DNA of 64,000 nucleotides. Source: Calditrichota bacterium (lineage in GTDB: Bacteria > Zhuqueibacterota > Zhuqueibacteria > Zhuqueibacterales > Geothermadaptataceae). This document shows positions 26,395 to 37,444 of this stretch, piece by piece. The stretch covers positions 1 through 64,000 of the forward strand of contig QQUE01000009.1 of the NCBI GenBank assembly GCA_008501765.1. The letters run 5' to 3'. The translations under genes and the position numbers were made by a program. How positions within the stretch are numbered: the first letter of the stretch is position 1; each line of letters begins with the position of its first letter. The notes beneath the pieces are model-generated. The model was given only the letters and a program-made list of their open reading frames with translations. It was not told the DNA's origin and made no database searches.

Positions 26395-26493
26395 ATTCAA
26401 TTTCGTTTCTATTATTTGCTGGAATTTTAGAGGATTTTTCAAGGTTGCAGTAGAATGCATACTTTATTCAGTTAAAATCCAAAGGGAGAAAAC

Positions 26494-27501
26494 ATGGGCG
26501 ACTCATTGAAAAATTCAGTCATTGTATTTTTTCTGCTTTTATTTTTTGCAAGTGTATTATTTGCACAGGAAAGTCCGGTGATGAAAGAGTTTGAACAAAT
26601 TCTGCCCCGCGGCCGGATAGCAGCCATTACAGAACCAATTTACGTTCCTGCTCAAGCCGCAAAAATCGGTGACGAAAGCTGGGTACTCGGCGTCATTATC
26701 GATGGCGAAGCGCGTGCCTACAGCCTGACGTTGCTGAACAGTCATGAAATTGTCAACGACAAAATTGGCGAAACGGCGTTTGCCGCAGTTTGGTGACCGC
26801 TGGCAAACACTGCCGTCGTGTATGGCAGAGATTACCAGCAGCAGACGCTTAATTTTGAAGCCTCCGGCGGTCTGATTAAGGGATCGCTCATAATGCAGGA
26901 TCAGGAGACAGATACTTATTGGTCGATCATGACCGGCGAGGCCATCGCCGGAAAAATGCACAAAACAAAACTTGCTGAATTGCCCGTCAGTGAAAAAATG
27001 CAATGGAAAGATTGGGTAAAAAAATACCCCAATACGGCCGTACTTTCCGTTGATGGCGAAGAAGAGTCTCCGGTTGATTATTATTCCAACTATTTTAAAT
27101 CGGAACAAGGCTTTCGCAAATTAAAGGCGAAAGATAAACGCCTGAGAACCAAAGAACCAATTTTCGCATTTCAGTACGAAAACCGAAAAATTGCTATTCC
27201 GCATAGCGCATTTTGGGGCGGCAAAGCTTTCGACATTGGGGGAGAGAGCGTTTTTCTGTTCCGCTCACCAACAGATGCCATTTTTGCTTCGACAAAGGCT
27301 TTTATTGCTCCGGCGAATACCTTCAAAAAACAAAATGAACAGTGGATTGAAACCAGTTCACAGCACTTCTTTGATGCCAAATCAGGGAAATTTACCGGGA
27401 ACAAATCTGAGAACGAAAGTCCAAAACCACTCAATGGTTTCGATACATTCTGGTATAACTGGAGTTTGACGAATAAAGAAACTGAAGTTATTAAAAAATG
27501 A
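26494..27501 (+). CDS. DUF3179-family protein, probable selenoprotein (Sec101 at an in-frame UGA)
   Basis: The frame is 336 codons including the final stop, with one internal TGA at 26794-26796. The product has a signal peptide (about 1-25, ending LFA) and DUF3179 features on both sides of the UGA: HEIVNDKIGE before it, and PLANTAVVYGR right after it. In family members the same place reads V-x-Y-C-P-L-C/A-x-T, so the UGA sits at the conserved cysteine. The second cysteine of CPLC is Ala here. A symmetric hairpin with a G-starting apical loop follows the UGA (see 26794-26839). I therefore read the whole span as one gene and not a broken one. GGGAG supports ATG 26494. The function of DUF3179 is not known; a thiol/selenol redox role in the periplasm is inferred. 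The alternative is a recent nonsense mutation. Confidence 0.78.
26794..26839 (+). promoter_or_regulatory. Candidate bacterial SECIS element
   Basis: Directly after the UGA (26794-26796), GCTGG at 26799-26803 pairs with CCAGC at 26835-26839, and CTGCC at 26810-26814 with GGCAG at 26824-26828. The segment between keeps register, with only single mismatches (C-A, A-A, A-A) and A-T and C-G pairs. The nine-base apical loop GTCGTGTAT starts with G and lies 18 bases after the UGA, within the 16-37 base range described for bacterial SECIS elements. Confidence 0.7.
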
Positions 27502-27910
27502 TAGGTTGTGGAAATTTAATGCTCACCCCGCATTAGTTACAGTCTTGTGTTTGTCATTCCGGTTTTCACAGAGTGAAATACAGAGATGTCATCGCTTTTG
27601 GCGTAGACTCAATGAGATTCCGGTATTGCAAAAAGAAGCAAACAGGAAGGACAAATGACACCAGTCAAAGTATATCTGTAGGTAACGTGAATCGATATAA
27701 GAAGAATTGGAACAAAACGAATTAATTATAGGATATAGTCCGAAGGCGTCCCGCCGAGGATAACCCACGAAACGCTCGGCGAGACGCCTTCGCTCTATCT
27801 TAATTATGCTTGGTAAAGAATGTTACAGCTTACTTCGATTTCACGTTAGGTATATATTTTTTGCTCTACAAATTAATTGAATCAACCAGAAAACAGACAG
27901 GAATGCACAA
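27502..27910. repeat. Intergenic stretch with REP-like palindrome
   Basis: CGAAGGCGTC and GCCGAG at 27742-27759 pair with CTCGGC and GACGCCTTCG at 27776-27793, with two mismatched bases between the blocks, giving a strong hairpin without a T tail. The sequence before it (27556-27622) contains GTCATTCCGG and GAGATTCCGG, which look like a decayed copy of another palindrome. I see no gene. Confidence 0.65.
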
Positions 27911-29971: not shown

Positions 29972-31159
29972 TTACATATTGGTAAAGTGCAGCGACTCTT
30001 TCAGCTCGGGATCGTTCATCGGGACGAGTTTATTGCCAGTGAATTTTCTCCAGAAAATTGCCATAAATATCCCGCCAACTCCCAGCATGGCTGTGAAATC
30101 GAGCCAGGAAAAATGGGCGGAGTGTTTGTGGAATGTCGGCAGTACTAACCAATATAAATCAATCCAGTGGATGATCAAAAACCAGAAGCCCATCACCCAG
30201 AGTAATTTCAGATTCCGTTTTGAATTGCGAGTGACTAAAATTACAAATGGCAGTACAAAGTGGCCGAAAACGATGATCATGCTGATCGTTTTCCAGCTTC
30301 CTTCCCAGCGGTGCAGAAACCAGATTGTTTCTTCGGGAATATTGCCGTACCAGATGAGAAAATACTGTGAGAAGGCAATGTAAGCCCAGAAAACCGTGAA
30401 CGCAAAGAGCAATTTAGCGATATCCTGATAATGTTCGATCGTGACCACTTCTTCGAGAAATCCTTTGCTGCGTAAAAACAAGGCGACTAACATAATTGTG
30501 GACAAAACAGCCAACACGCTGCCTGAAAAAATATAAACACCGAAGATGGTTGAGTACCAATGAGGATCGAGAGACATCAGCCAATCAAACGAAGCGAAAG
30601 TCAGACTGAGGGCAAACAGCAGCATGCCGGGAGCGCTGATTTTCTTGAATTTTGCGGTGATGCCAGGTGTATGTTGCTGATCCTGTTTAACCGATAATTT
30701 AAATAAACTTAAGCTCAAAAGAATCCAGATGACAAAATAGCCAATACCACGAATTGTGAAAAATGTCGGGTTGAGGAATCCGGCTTTTCCTTGCAGCAGA
30801 TGATCTTTTGCTACAACTTCTTCGTGGCTCCAGTGATACAATTCATGCAGACCGAAAATGACCGGGATAAAAAAGAGCAGCATCCACGGCAATGCCGCCA
30901 TCAAGCTTTCAGAAAATTTCCGCAGTACGACGCTCCAAACTGCGCCTGTCAGGTGGTGCAGCAACGTAAAAAACAAGCCACCTAATCCGATTGTTACCCA
31001 AAAGAAAAATGCCGTCAAATAAGAATGGTACATCTGGCCGGGGGAAACAACAAAATAACCAATCGCAGTCAACACCAATCCGATTACACCACCGATCAAT
31101 GCAAACGTGCCAAATTTGCTGCTCTCAAGCAGTCTTGTATGTTCTCTGTTTAAATCCAT
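29972..31159 (-). CDS. actF: Alternative complex III subunit ActF
   Basis: The 395-residue product has about ten membrane helices and the conserved FASFDWLMSLDPHWYSTIFG and YGNIPEETIWFLHRW segments of the ActF/ActC-like (NrfD-related) subunits. It binds quinol-side partners in the quinol:cytochrome c oxidoreductase complex. ATG 31159 is chosen because longer reading would run far into actE. GGAGG lies 15 bases upstream, which is longer than usual. It is the last gene of the act operon. Confidence 0.88.
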   Translation of the reverse strand: MDLNREHTRLLESSKFGTFALIGGVIGLVLTAIGYFVVSPGQMYHSYLTAFFFWVTIGLGGLFFTLLHHLTGAVWSVVLRKFSESLMAALPWMLLFFIPVIFGLHELYHWSHEEVVAKDHLLQGKAGFLNPTFFTIRGIGYFVIWILLSLSLFKLSVKQDQQHTPGITAKFKKISAPGMLLFALSLTFASFDWLMSLDPHWYSTIFGVYIFSGSVLAVLSTIMLVALFLRSKGFLEEVVTIEHYQDIAKLLFAFTVFWAYIAFSQYFLIWYGNIPEETIWFLHRWEGSWKTISMIIVFGHFVLPFVILVTRNSKRNLKLLWVMGFWFLIIHWIDLYWLVLPTFHKHSAHFSWLDFTAMLGVGGIFMAIFWRKFTGNKLVPMNDPELKESLHFTNM

Positions 31160-31181
31160 ATTAAACTCGCTTTTCCTCCGA

Positions 31182-31778
31182 CTATTCGCCTTTTGGGGCG
31201 CTTTGCATTTTACGAAGATGAGCAACAATTGCCCACCGGTCTCGCACACTAATCTGGTGCCGATACGAAGGCATGGTTCGCACACCATTCGAGATCACGC
31301 CAAAAATATAACCATCGGTAAAATTCTTCACTTTGTCATCCATAAAATTAGGCGGCGGCAACATGCCTTTTTCAATTATCAACCCTTTGCCGTCACCATT
31401 GCTATTGTGACAAGGGGTGCAGTAAATTTCATAACGTTCTTCGCCACGCGCTAAAAGTGCCGTTGTGATATCCAGCGCATTGGAAGTGATTTCGTTGCCT
31501 GCAGTATTTTTGCCAGTATAAAAAGCAGCATTTTCCCGCAAATCACCGCGGGCGACAGTTCCGGCAACAGGCATGCGCATTGTCGAGCTGTTGATGAAAA
31601 AATTGCTGTGCGCCTGCGCCTTGTACTTTTTCTGGCTATCCATATTTGGGTTGAGATGGATTGGTGGTTTTTCTGAAGTTCCGCCCCGGCATCCGGCAAA
31701 AATCAAAGCAAATAAAAACGATGCGAGCAGGGCATAAATACTGTTTTTTGAGGGAAAAATATTGAGCAGCTTTCTCAT
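31182..31778 (-). CDS. actE: Alternative complex III monoheme cytochrome ActE
   Basis: The 198-residue lipoprotein (LIFAGC near residue 30) has one haem site, CTPCHNSNGDGKG, and a likely Met ligand in NGVRTMPSYRHQ. ActE passes electrons from the complex to a soluble acceptor in the periplasm. The segment MRMPVAGTVARGDLREN is typical of the family. It lies between actD and actF, 22 bases before the latter. Confidence 0.92.
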   Translation of the reverse strand: MRKLLNIFPSKNSIYALLASFLFALIFAGCRGGTSEKPPIHLNPNMDSQKKYKAQAHSNFFINSSTMRMPVAGTVARGDLRENAAFYTGKNTAGNEITSNALDITTALLARGEERYEIYCTPCHNSNGDGKGLIIEKGMLPPPNFMDDKVKNFTDGYIFGVISNGVRTMPSYRHQISVRDRWAIVAHLRKMQSAPKGE

Positions 31779-31812
31779 TATTATCTCAAGATTTAGTAAA
31801 AAAAATAAAGCG

Positions 31813-32358
31813 TTACTTCGCTTCGATTATTTCGAGCGAAGTCCCACCAATTGAAGTTAAAAATTCTTTTGTTTTTGTTTCATCAAATTTTGGATCACCC
31901 GCTTCAATACTGACCATGAATCCATCGTCCGTAACTTTGGCGAACTGCTCCGAATAAAAAACATTGTGGAACAACTGCGGCAATCGATTTAAATGAAACA
32001 TGCCGAATACCGTTGCGATGGCTGCAAACAAAATCGTCAATTCAAAAGCGACAGGCACAAATGCCGCAAAACTAAAGAAGGGTTTGCCAGATATTACCAG
32101 CGGATATTCAATAGCGCTCACCCATCCCTGCAAACCAAATCCGCCAATGCAACCAATAAGACCGGCAATTCCGGCTATGAATCCCAGTTTGCTTTGCCTC
32201 AAACCCATGGCATTATCCATTCCGTGCACCGGAAATGGAGAATGAACATCAAACTTCCGGTAACCCGCGTCACGGATTTGCTCTGCTGCTTTTAAAAGCT
32301 CGCCAGGGTTGGCAAATTCGGCTAAAATACCCAGGGCTTTTTTATTTTCTGTACTCAT
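31813..32358 (-). CDS. actD: Alternative complex III subunit ActD (DUF3341)
   Basis: The 181-residue product has a cytoplasmic start (LGILAEFANPGELLKAAEQI) and two membrane helices (about 58-80 and 95-118) with the motif SPFPVHGMDNAMGL. This is the DUF3341 pattern of ActD, which stabilises the membrane part of the complex. Spacing to the neighbours is 34 and 28 bases, as in an operon. Confidence 0.92.
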   Translation of the reverse strand: MSTENKKALGILAEFANPGELLKAAEQIRDAGYRKFDVHSPFPVHGMDNAMGLRQSKLGFIAGIAGLIGCIGGFGLQGWVSAIEYPLVISGKPFFSFAAFVPVAFELTILFAAIATVFGMFHLNRLPQLFHNVFYSEQFAKVTDDGFMVSIEAGDPKFDETKTKEFLTSIGGTSLEIIEAK

Positions 32359-32386
32359 ATTTTATCTCACACTTTCAAATTCTAGC

Positions 32387-33778
32387 CTAATGGTTTTCGT
32401 GGGCATGTGGATTAGCTTGCGGCAAAATAAACTTAACTTCAGCCATTGCGATGGTTGGCAAAAATCGCAGAAAAATCAAAAATAGCGACAGAAAAATACC
32501 AATCGTTCCGACATAAATTCCCACATCAAAAATGGTTGGGGAGAAATAATCCCAGTTTGCCGGGATAAAATCGCGTGATAATGAAGTCACCGTGATCACA
32601 AATCTTTCGAACCACATTCCGACATTTATCAAAATAGAAGCAATAAAAAGCACAATCGGTTTGCCACGCATTTTTTTGCTCCAGAAAATCTGTGGCACCA
32701 CAACATTGCAGAAAATCATTGTCCAATATGCCCACGCGTAGGGGCCGAAGGCTCGATTTATAAAAGCAAATTGCTCATATTCGTTACCGCTGTACCAGGC
32801 AACAAAAAATTCACAGCCATAAGCATAGCCGACCATATATCCAGTGAGCAACATCACCATCGCCATGTTGCCGAGGTGTTTATCGGTGATAAAATTCTTC
32901 AAACCAAAGAAATGGCGCACCGGAATGGCCAGCGTCGTCACCATGGCAAATCCGGAAAAAATAGCGCCGGCGACAAAATACGGTGGGAAAATGGTCGTAT
33001 GCCAGCCGGGCAACTGGGAAACTGCAAAATCAAAACTAACAACGGTGTGTACTGATAAAACCAGCGGCGTTGAAAGCCCGGCCAGTAGCAGATAGGCTTT
33101 TTCATAATGTTGCCAATGGCGATTCGCACCGCGCCAGCCCAATGAAAAAGCAGCCAAAACATATTTGCGCACGCCTTTTTTCGCCCGATCTCGCAGTGTC
33201 GCCAAATCAGGAATGAGGCCAACATACCAGAACATCAGTGAAACGATAAAATACGTGCTGACCGCGAAAACATCCCAAAGCAACGGGCTGCGGAAGTTGG
33301 GCCACATACCCATCTGGTTTGGCAGCGGAAACATGTAATAGGCCATCCAAACGCGCCCAACGTGGATGCCGGGAAAAATGAGAGCACAGATAACGGCAAA
33401 AATGGTCATCGCTTCTGCAAAACGGTTAATGGAAGTCCGCCATCGCTGCCGCAGCAAAAATAATATTGCTGAAATCAAAGTTCCGGCGTGGCCGATACCA
33501 ACCCACCAGACAAAATTGACGATAGCCCAACCCCAGCCTACGGGATTATTGAGGCCCCAGATACCTGTGCCTTCCCAAATCAGATATCCGATCATTGAAA
33601 TGCCCATTGCGGCTAAAACGACAGCAACCGAAAAGATCCCCCACCAGATGCGCGGCGGTTTATTTTCTACAATTCCGCTGATCGTCTCAGTTACGGTATT
33701 AAAAGTCGGGTTCCCTAATATTAAGGGGACTTTACCGTTTGCGGGAGCTGCTTCTGTTGATTTTACTGTACTTTCCAC
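32387..33778 (-). CDS. actC: Alternative complex III integral membrane subunit ActC (NrfD/PsrC family)
   Basis: The 463-residue product has about ten membrane helices. Family segments are [39 protein letters not shown] and [15 protein letters not shown]. It is the quinol-binding membrane anchor for the ActB iron-sulfur domain. GTG 33778 is the likely start. It lies 28 bases after actB. Confidence 0.93.
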
Positions 33779-33806
33779 AGGTTTATCATTCCGTTCAGAT
33801 TAATAA

Positions 33807-36800
33807 TTATACATGCTCAGCATGTTCTTTTTTTTCTTCAACCAATGCAGGGTTTGCATTGCGTATTTTTGCCTGATATGTCGTCCGTGGACGATTATTC
33901 AGTTCAGCAATAATGCTGTAGTCCCGGTTCTGAGCTCTGACTTTCGATACTTCACTTTCAGGATCGAGAATATTTCCAAAGACGATGGCATCCGCCGGGC
34001 AGGTTTGCTGGCATGCTGTAACGACATCACCGTCTTTTAATGATCTGTTATCAACTTTGGCCTTGCGCTTTGCTTCATTTATCCGCTGCAGGCAGTACGT
34101 GCATTTTTCCATGACACCGCGGAACCGAACCGTAACATCAGGATTCATCGCCATTTGTACGATTTCCGGCGTATCATTTGTATAATTGAGAAAATTAAAT
34201 TTCCGTACTTTGTAGGGACAGTTATTTGAACAATATCGTGTACCGATGCAACGGTTGTAAGTCATCACGTTGATGCCTTCTTTGTCGTGGGAAGTTGCCG
34301 CTACCGGACAGACTTCTTCACACGGCGCCAACTCACAATGCTGACAGGCAACAGGCTGCGTGGCCATTTCCGGATTATCTTCATCGCCGGAAAAATAACG
34401 ATCCATGCGCATCCAATGCATTTCACGGCCGCGATCAACCTGGTCTTTACCAATAATCGGAATATTGTTTTCGCTCTGGCAGGCGATTGTGCAGGCGCTG
34501 CATCCGGTGCAGGTTGTGAGGTCAATTGCCATGGCCCACTGGTTGCCTTTATCGTATTTGTGATCTTCCCACATGGATTTGAGCGGCGGATGTTCAACCA
34601 TTTCCGGAGCAAATGTCGGATCTTTCCGGTACTCGTCCAGCGTGGCTTCGCGAATCAGAGCACGGCCTTCCATCGAACTATGATCCTGTGTATTGGCCAC
34701 TTTTGCAGTCGTACCCTTGGCACTCAAAATACCACCTACGCTGTAGTAAGAATTTGCCAACGAGCGTAAGGGATAAACATTTACCCCGGCATCTGTGGCA
34801 ATTCTACCCAATTTTGTATGCCCGTAACCCAGCTCGAGCACAACGGTATTTTCAGCGATTCCCGGCTGCACCCAGACTGGCAATTGAATTTCGCCAGTTG
34901 CTAATTTAAGTTTAACAACATCACGGCTTTGAACGCCCAGTTTTTTTGCCGATGCCACACTGATGAGCGCGACATTTTCCCACGTTACTTTTGTTACCGG
35001 GTCCGGCAATTCCTGCATCCAGCCATTGTTGGCAAACCGGCCGTCAAAAACTGAGGCCGATGCTGCAAAAACAACATCAAAATCATCTTCTTTCGCTGCG
35101 GTTGTGGGAAATGGCTTTGCTGTCAAAGCTCTGGAAATCGCAGCCATGCGCAATTGCGGTTGCATTGCAGTCAGTGCGCTATTTTTCAAAACACCATCGT
35201 GTAAAACACGGCGCCAGTTTTTCTCAGAATTGCTAAATCCAGGCAGGTTCGTCCATGTTTCCTGAACGATGTCGTGCGCTGTTTTTTCCTCAGACGAGGC
35301 GATAAAATGCAGCAGTTCTGTTTCAGATTTTCCATTAAAAAGCGGTGCGATAAGTGGTTGCACGAGACTTAAAGTTCCATCGATTGCCCGTGCATCGCCC
35401 CAATTTTCTAAAGCGTGGGTGCCGTTAATGTGCCATTCAGCCTGTGAACCCGTCTCATCGGCATGCATGCCGATGTGAATTGTATGGGTCAGTTTTTGAA
35501 AAGCGGCGGCGAAATCCAGTTCGGCTGATGCATCGTAGACAGGGTTGCTGCCAAGCATAATCAGTGTAGAAATTGAGCCATCGGCAATGCTTTTCGTCAT
35601 GTCAGAAAAGTCGGCTTGCGAAGACAGAGCTTTGTCGACCAATGAATAATAATTTACAGTGGCGCCGTTATTTCGCAGGGCTGCATTGATTGCATAAACA
35701 AGAGCGTGAATTTCGGGTGCCAGACTCTGACCTGCAGTAACCAGGCATTGGCCGGATGCTGTGCGTAAATCTTGCGCCACCGCCGATAGCCATTTGGTAT
35801 CGAACGAATGATTCTTGTAGCTACTGAGAGCTGAGACATCGATACTTAGACCTTGAGCTTTGAGCTCAAGTGCAAGCGCGGCCGTAAAAGCGCCCATCTG
35901 GCGTGCCTGAATTTTAACGCGATGATCAGCCATACCTCCGGTTACTGAATAGGATGGCTCGGCAACATAAAGACGATTCATTTCATCTTTTTCGGAAGTC
36001 AGGCGTCGACCACTGGCGAATCCTTTGTTGTTGCGAATGCTTTCAGGCTCAGTTAGCAGTAAATCAGCATCCAGGGATAAAATAACTTTGGCCTTTTCCA
36101 GTGAATAAACCGGAACGAGTGGGGAGCCTGTTGCTAATTGCACACCGGCAATTTTATTTTCATCCGAGATTGAATCGTAGGTGACCCAACGCGCCCGTGG
36201 AAATGTTTTTAGAAATGCGCGTTGCAGCCGCGCCATCGTTGGAGATGACCAGGATTTTGCCAGAATGGCCAGCCCCTCACCATTGCTCTCTTTGTAATCC
36301 GCAGAAATTTGTTCCCACGCTGCTACAAATTTTTTCCATGATGATTTATTACCATTATTCAAAACATATTTCGAGCGATCGGGATCGTACAAATCGAGAA
36401 GCGAAGCCTGGAGCCAGGAATTGGACGCGCCCATCGTCGAGGGATGCAGTTCATTGCCCTCAATTTTTGTCGGGCGGCCTTCATGGCTTTCGACCAATAC
36501 ACCGTAAGAGTTCAAACCAAACGGCAGGGTACTGGCGTAGTATTTTGCCACTCCGGGAACAACCTCTTCCGGTGCTTTCACGTATGGAACAATTTTTTCG
36601 ACAGGCCGGCGGCAACTTGCCAAACCTGCAAGCGCCATCGATGCGCCCATAATTGAAAAGAACTTGCGTCGACTGACAGGATCGCCGAGTTCGGATGCAC
36701 CCTCGGGAAATTCACGATGCAGGAATTTTTTAAACTCTGGCGTTTCAGCAAGTTGATCCATACTCCGCCAGTATTCTTTTTGATTTATTTTCTTTTCTAC

Positions 36801-36809
36801 TGATGACAT
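33807..36809 (-). CDS. actB: Alternative complex III iron-sulfur protein ActB
   Basis: The 1000-residue protein starts with a twin-arginine signal (SRRKFFSIMG, residues 46-55), so it is exported folded. Residues about 60-740 resemble molybdopterin oxidoreductases, a domain that in ActB carries no cofactor. The C-terminal ferredoxin part (about 755-930) has 15 cysteines in CTGCSACTIAC, CQHCELAPCEEVC, CIGTRYCSNNC, CTYC and CQQTC, matching three 4Fe-4S clusters and one 3Fe-4S. ATG 36809 is chosen: GGAGG lies ten bases upstream, while the in-frame TTG at 36818 is too close to it. The start overlaps the actA end by 13 bases. Confidence 0.94.
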   Translation of the reverse strand: MSSVEKKINQKEYWRSMDQLAETPEFKKFLHREFPEGASELGDPVSRRKFFSIMGASMALAGLASCRRPVEKIVPYVKAPEEVVPGVAKYYASTLPFGLNSYGVLVESHEGRPTKIEGNELHPSTMGASNSWLQASLLDLYDPDRSKYVLNNGNKSSWKKFVAAWEQISADYKESNGEGLAILAKSWSSPTMARLQRAFLKTFPRARWVTYDSISDENKIAGVQLATGSPLVPVYSLEKAKVILSLDADLLLTEPESIRNNKGFASGRRLTSEKDEMNRLYVAEPSYSVTGGMADHRVKIQARQMGAFTAALALELKAQGLSIDVSALSSYKNHSFDTKWLSAVAQDLRTASGQCLVTAGQSLAPEIHALVYAINAALRNNGATVNYYSLVDKALSSQADFSDMTKSIADGSISTLIMLGSNPVYDASAELDFAAAFQKLTHTIHIGMHADETGSQAEWHINGTHALENWGDARAIDGTLSLVQPLIAPLFNGKSETELLHFIASSEEKTAHDIVQETWTNLPGFSNSEKNWRRVLHDGVLKNSALTAMQPQLRMAAISRALTAKPFPTTAAKEDDFDVVFAASASVFDGRFANNGWMQELPDPVTKVTWENVALISVASAKKLGVQSRDVVKLKLATGEIQLPVWVQPGIAENTVVLELGYGHTKLGRIATDAGVNVYPLRSLANSYYSVGGILSAKGTTAKVANTQDHSSMEGRALIREATLDEYRKDPTFAPEMVEHPPLKSMWEDHKYDKGNQWAMAIDLTTCTGCSACTIACQSENNIPIIGKDQVDRGREMHWMRMDRYFSGDEDNPEMATQPVACQHCELAPCEEVCPVAATSHDKEGINVMTYNRCIGTRYCSNNCPYKVRKFNFLNYTNDTPEIVQMAMNPDVTVRFRGVMEKCTYCLQRINEAKRKAKVDNRSLKDGDVVTACQQTCPADAIVFGNILDPESEVSKVRAQNRDYSIIAELNNRPRTTYQAKIRNANPALVEEKKEHAEHV

Positions 36810-37444
36810 GCTGAACAATCCTCCGGCGGCGCGATATTTTTATCTTTTTTAAATTGGGCGACGAATTCAGAATGATTTTCCGGGGCCACCCAGGTCATAT
36901 TCGTTATTTCGGAAACAGGACGTAAATAGGGGTCTGGATTTCGATGGCAATCGAGGCACCAGGACATGCTTAATGGCTGGTTCTGCGCCACAACTTCCAT
37001 CGTGGCAATATTGCCATGGCAACTGACACAGCCAATGCCGGATGCGAGATGAACGCTGTGATCAAAATAGGCGTAGTCTGGCAGTTTGTGCACCCGAATC
37101 CATTGTATAGGCGTGTCGTTATTCCAGCTTTCATTGACAGGGATCATTTTCTCACTGTCCGCTTTTATCATAACATGACAATTCATGCAGGTCTGGGTTG
37201 GGGGGATATTGGCTTCGTGTGAAACTTCTACAAAATTATGACAATAACGGCAATCAACACGCATATCGCCGGCATGCACTTTATGACTGAATTCAACCGG
37301 CTGCACCGGACGATAGCCGACATCCGTGTACCACGGAGAGCCGTAATAGGCAAAAAAACCATACACACCCGCACCAAGCAGGATGGTACCGACAAGCAAA
37401 ATCAGCGGTAACCTGTTTGTCCATTGTGGGAACAATTGTGCCAA
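36797..37444 (-). CDS. actA: Alternative complex III pentaheme cytochrome ActA
   Basis: The 215-residue protein has one N-terminal membrane anchor (about 12-33) and five haem sites: CRYCH, CMNCH, CVSCH, CLDCH and CSACH. It carries electrons from ActB towards ActE or other cytochromes on the periplasmic face. TTG 37444 is the start, with GAGGA seven bases upstream. It is the first gene of actABCDEF, which runs without a break to 29972. No cytochrome oxidase follows, unlike in many genomes. Confidence 0.93.
   Translation of the reverse strand: MAQLFPQWTNRLPLILLVGTILLGAGVYGFFAYYGSPWYTDVGYRPVQPVEFSHKVHAGDMRVDCRYCHNFVEVSHEANIPPTQTCMNCHVMIKADSEKMIPVNESWNNDTPIQWIRVHKLPDYAYFDHSVHLASGIGCVSCHGNIATMEVVAQNQPLSMSWCLDCHRNPDPYLRPVSEITNMTWVAPENHSEFVAQFKKDKNIAPPEDCSACHQ

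Follow-up and report, generated by a model that had tools for sequence, protein, structure and literature searches.

Evidence for selenocysteine at an in-frame UGA in a DUF3179 gene of a Calditrichota bacterium

The DUF3179 reading frame and its product

The window, a stretch of 64,000 nucleotides at the start of contig QQUE01000009.1 of a Calditrichota bacterium, carries on its forward strand a gene of the DUF3179 family, the features of which are collected in Table 1. Translation of 26494-27501 gave a product with a hydrophobic N-terminus and a single internal stop, the TGA of codon 101, which lies between AAVW and PLANTAVVYGR. Downstream of this codon the frame of the gene contains no stop, compared with 7 and 18 in the two other frames, and 234 codons separate it from the terminal TGA, which is adjoined by a TAG; the single TGA followed by a long open frame described in the initial annotation was therefore seen, although its length had been given as 235 codons. 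With the TGA read through, DUF3179 was the sole Pfam family matched (E 9.6e-51, 173.4 bits against a gathering cut-off of 27), which bears out the earlier observation that features of this family occur in one frame on both sides of the stop. The mechanical list of open reading frames breaks the gene into two at codon 101. Standard gene callers likewise cut selenocysteine genes in two at the TGA, and the family is therefore probably under-annotated. The AF2 model of the read-through protein was confident (pLDDT of 93.8 for the full protein and 95.0 for the N-terminal domain), suggesting a well-formed fold, with pLDDT values of about 57-62 across residues 1-30, the region of the probable signal peptide.

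Table 1. Features of the DUF3179 locus, with positions in the window
Feature	Position	Strand	Details and basis
Ribosome-binding-site-like AGGGAG	26483..26488	+	5 nt upstream of ATG; sequence
Predicted DUF3179 selenoprotein gene	26494..27501	+	335 residues, Sec = codon 101; TGA then TAG at end; translation, Pfam, orthologues
Probable signal peptide, residues 1-24 (...ASVLFA/QE)	26494..26565	+	read from sequence
DUF3179 domain (PF11376), residues 41-325	26614..27468	+	Pfam profile search
His84-Glu85	26743..26748	+	residue conservation in DUF3179 alignment
UGA codon for predicted selenocysteine 101 (U-P-L-A)	26794..26796	+	translation and orthologue comparison
Lower stem of SECIS element (26799-26803 with 26835-26839)	26799..26839	+	predicted, window sequence only; absent from RNAalifold consensus
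SECIS hairpin	26810..26828	+	stem 26810-26816 with 26822-26828, loop CGUGU 26817-26821; folding, covariation, synonymous constraint

Conservation of the UGA, the hairpin and the decoding machinery

Orthologues were sought in related genomes and in a bacterial and archaeal set with each species represented by one genome. About 50 were found, from many phyla and with 40-57% identity, each holding exactly one TGA, in the same column as codon 101. All 49 distinct selenocysteine (Sec) members of this branch read VW-U-PLAN, so that Ala104, the fourth motif position, is common to them and the window protein; by record title or taxonomy they belong to KSB1/Calditrichota, Acidobacteriota, Gammaproteobacteria, Krumholzibacteriota, Latescibacterota, Myxococcota and Planctomycetota. 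Cys at the Sec column was not found among the approximately 50 members of this UxxA branch that were read. Outside the branch, the anammox bacteria Scalindua/Brocadiaceae have W-C-PLAN and Anammoxibacter has W-U-PLAN. The column thus holds TGA or Cys across relatives, as the initial annotation had suggested it might, and the window gene has an in-frame UGA where homologues have Cys, the usual mark of a selenoprotein. One planctomycete of the Sec branch (L076:5001-5909), on a long branch of the tree, has Ser in place of Sec (V-W-S-P-S-S-N) despite the presence of SelB, SelA and tRNA-Sec in its genome, indicating that the residue can be lost.

The SECIS-like fold proposed initially proved to be real. 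The hairpin, with a 7-bp stem, a 5-nt loop (CGUGU) and 20 nt spacing after the UGA, conforms to the published bacterial SECIS model, which specifies a hairpin lying 16-37 nt from the UGA, with an apical loop of 3-9 nt, a G at one of the first two positions of that loop, a stem of 4-16 bp and an MFE of at most -7.5 (PMC13188914); as the Val109 codon dictates the loop GU too, the invariance of these two bases alone proves nothing. When 51 nt were folded, the MFE was -18 kcal/mol (z -2.2; 4 of 200 shuffles were as good). A 41-nt cut folded alone gave a different structure that was no better than shuffles (z -0.5); single-sequence folding is therefore weak here, and the argument rests on covariation. 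Across 49 sequences, 88.6% of cells were paired with 16 double changes, and covariation reached 0.181 versus 0.094 in shuffles (0 of 500 reached the observed value) and at most 0.119 in slid controls. Pair 21-31 was C-G in 40 sequences, U-A in 9 and broken in none. The same helix was independently recovered by RNAalifold, minus pair 20-32, which is formed in only part of the sequences. In the 10 Cys relatives, the same columns were without covariation and several pairs were broken, the 51-nt fold averaging -6.4 kcal/mol versus -14.3 in the Sec forms. Furthermore, codons 107-111, inside the hairpin, had the lowest synonymous variation among all sets of five successive scored codons in the gene; scaled to the codon usage of these genes, the ratio was 0.36, versus a mean of 0.92 outside codons 102-112. 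As the kinship of the sequences inflates the shuffle tests, the agreement among these separate measures outweighs any single number.

The search for the decoding machinery suggested at the outset returned every component in the source genome: tRNA-Sec (66 bits), SelB (343 bits, about 2 kb from tRNA-Sec), SelA (544 bits) and SelD (353 bits). The SelD gene (L033, C3:229267-230187) itself contains one in-frame TGA and is probably a selenoprotein of a known kind. Among the genomes with the Sec form, SelB was present in 35 of 38 and tRNA-Sec in the other 3, versus 9 of 10 Cys-form genomes without SelB, tRNA-Sec and SelA (Fisher p 6e-9, the Cys genomes being close kin and in effect representing one or two events). 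The remaining Cys-form genome (L090) has a complete Sec system. Of 51 genes read in the branch, 15 end in TGA, from which it follows that TGA has not been reassigned wholesale.

From one sequence, a lone stop in an intact frame looks the same whether it is recoded or is a nonsense mutation or sequencing error with the downstream frame as a remnant. The latter reading was rejected because the same TGA, with an open frame and no other in-frame stop, is conserved in distant relatives from many phyla, and the covarying hairpin also speaks against it, leaving it exceedingly improbable. Neither frameshifts nor further stops were present in the gene or its close orthologues; these and a missing machinery were the findings that the initial annotation had named as contrary to its proposal. 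Near-cognate tRNAs can read through UGA, and decoding as another amino acid, whether through code reassignment or through plain read-through to give Trp, would likewise leave the frame intact. Against this stand a column that is otherwise Cys, the SECIS hairpin and the way in which the TGA form tracks SelB/tRNA-Sec genome by genome; a changed code was rejected because TGA stops genes elsewhere in the branch, and decoding as an amino acid other than Sec is thus very unlikely. Selenocysteine at residue 101, as claimed in the initial annotation, is predicted with near certainty from the conserved UGA column, the covarying, codon-constrained hairpin and the machinery in the genome. On this comparative evidence, the UGA would be decoded as selenocysteine by SelB and Sec-tRNA during translation, under the direction of the hairpin 14-32 nt downstream. 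That the gene as a whole would encode an exported DUF3179 selenoprotein, with its UGA read as Sec via the hairpin, is very strongly favoured on the same grounds.

Relation to known selenoproteins and to sister branches

The initial annotation knew of no described selenoprotein in DUF3179, and on this point it was mistaken. The family is already tabulated with the motif UxxC/T in two reviews (PMC9312934; PMC13188914, Table 1), both of which cite Zhang and Gladyshev 2007 for these selenoproteins. The gene therefore adds no new family to the known selenoproteins, and its novelty is lower than had been proposed. By the rule stated with the published selenoprotein tables, however, different Sec motifs count as subfamilies (PMC9312934, PMC13188914). 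The window protein resembles the UxxC/T proteins in belonging to PF11376, in having Sec at the first Cys of C-P-L-C and in combining a TGA with Sec machinery, but its fourth motif residue is Ala104 rather than Cys or Thr, and its branch is separate, well supported and without a Cys form. Within the open-licence literature, neither the UxxA and UxxV/I/E motifs nor the likely anammox change from Sec to Cys appears in the tables of PMC9312934 and PMC13188914. Sec motifs holding no Cys are known from GPX-like (UxxT) and TsoY (UxxV) proteins (PMC13188914 Table 1), in which, as here, Sec acts without a motif Cys; these, however, are other families, and no solved structure was matched significantly by the DUF3179 model.

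In a tree of 80 rows, from which the two motif columns were left out, nearly all Sec forms fell in one clade (support 99/96) within which the UxxA branch was nested (100/99). The Cys forms of anammox bacteria were nested in the Sec clade too, with the Sec forms of Anammoxibacter as their sister group (98/95); the inner order of that clade had only moderate support (85/86). One distant Desulfobulbaceae Sec form was placed outside the clade with weak support. On these sequences, the simplest reading would be a single origin of Sec in the clade with a later Sec-to-Cys change in Scalindua/Brocadiaceae accompanied by loss of the Sec system; given the 85/86 inner support, Sec may also have been gained independently. 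The Cys proteins (W-C-P-L-A-N) share the motif and its Ala with the window protein, at 32-36% identity over the whole length, but have Cys for Sec and do not keep the hairpin, and 9 of their 10 genomes lack SelB and tRNA-Sec. A reversion from Sec to Cys in anammox bacteria is thus likely, as judged from the tree and the gene content, and would add to bacterial Sec-to-Cys changes on record that are mostly confined to FdhA and SelD (PMC13188914). The anammox set (L085-L097) comprises Anammoxibacter with Sec and the Sec system, and Scalindua/Brocadiaceae with Cys and mostly without it, a Sec/Cys contrast in nature that follows the distribution of the machinery.

The source genome also contains two adjacent, shorter DUF3179 genes (L143 and L147, C14:61721-62974) with one TGA each and the motif Y-U-P-L-V. 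These belong to a second Sec branch (UxxV/I/E), a neighbour of the UxxA branch that is common to many related genomes; tandem copies also occur in L149.

A putative single-selenol site

The initial annotation had further proposed that the Sec would act alone, the second motif Cys being Ala, and this held: no Cys was present among the 335 residues. Sec101 would take the place of the first Cys of the family C-P-L-C motif and be the sole thiol or selenol in the protein. The selenoprotein branch, well supported and spanning about 50 species, has one Sec and usually no other Cys, a C-terminal Cys pair being present in only 13-14 of 49 members; with no Cys form in the branch, this argues against Sec belonging to a redox pair within the protein. 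Branch-invariant residues include Asn82, His84, Glu85, Asn88, Asp136 and Trp143. Glu85 was found in 99% and His84 in 93% of 115 DUF3179 rows, and both in 100% of the UxxA branch; they are probable active-site neighbours of Sec101. It may be, then, that Sec101 is a single-selenol redox centre beside His84-Glu85 that acts in the cell envelope, reducing or binding a substrate that is oxidised or thiophilic, and that, as there is no internal resolving cysteine, would be recycled by an outside thiol. An exported single-selenol redox protein with this chemistry is put forward tentatively, as a possibility with somewhat less than even chances. A family of unassigned role gains a defined residue for functional tests. 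No sequence relative of the protein was found among solved structures, NCBIfam held no name for it or its relatives, and no conserved gene neighbours pointing to a substrate were seen in the Sec branch. A radical-SAM neighbour seemingly shared within that branch was only apparent, being a chain of different families.

Alternatively, Sec101 could be a metal or metalloid ligand and not a redox nucleophile, the N-terminal domain being a Rieske-like fold minus the iron-sulphur cluster. The best Foldseek matches of the N-terminal domain include the Rieske proteins 3dqy (probability 0.87, TM 0.51 by target), 8hn2 (0.51 and 0.53), NirD 3c0d, 4aiv and 3d89, and N-x-H-x16-U-x-x-A is spaced identically to the C-x-H-x16-C-x-x-H motif in 15 Rieske domains from related genomes. 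That exact register, however, came from one hhalign setting, most settings giving other registers and all of them a probability below 1%; every fold E-value for this domain exceeded 0.2, and neither the full model nor the N-terminal domain (searched with Foldseek) had a significant match among solved structures. Moreover, the ligand pairs C-x-H and C-x-x-H are absent, the window protein having N-x-H and U-x-x-A, and counterparts exist for just two of the four Rieske ligands, the first His and the second Cys, the latter being Sec here. The homology is accordingly a lead only, and a ligand role of this kind is unlikely. Doubtful to a slightly greater degree is the fuller proposal that DUF3179 is a cluster-less Rieske-like domain with Sec in place of a cluster-ligand cysteine, forming a new type of active site centred on selenium; this site would be without a Cys swap in the many-phyla branch, and only the anammox bacteria that lost the Sec system would have gone back to Cys.

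An Rfam scan found no known element. Beyond the gene, an intergenic inverted repeat lies downstream at 27740-27810 (CGAAGGCGTC...CCGAGG / CTCGGCGAGACGCCTTCG), and on the minus strand, at 29972-37444, there is a cluster that, by eye from the translations, resembles alternative complex III, with a multihaem cytochrome and molybdopterin-type and NrfD-like subunits.
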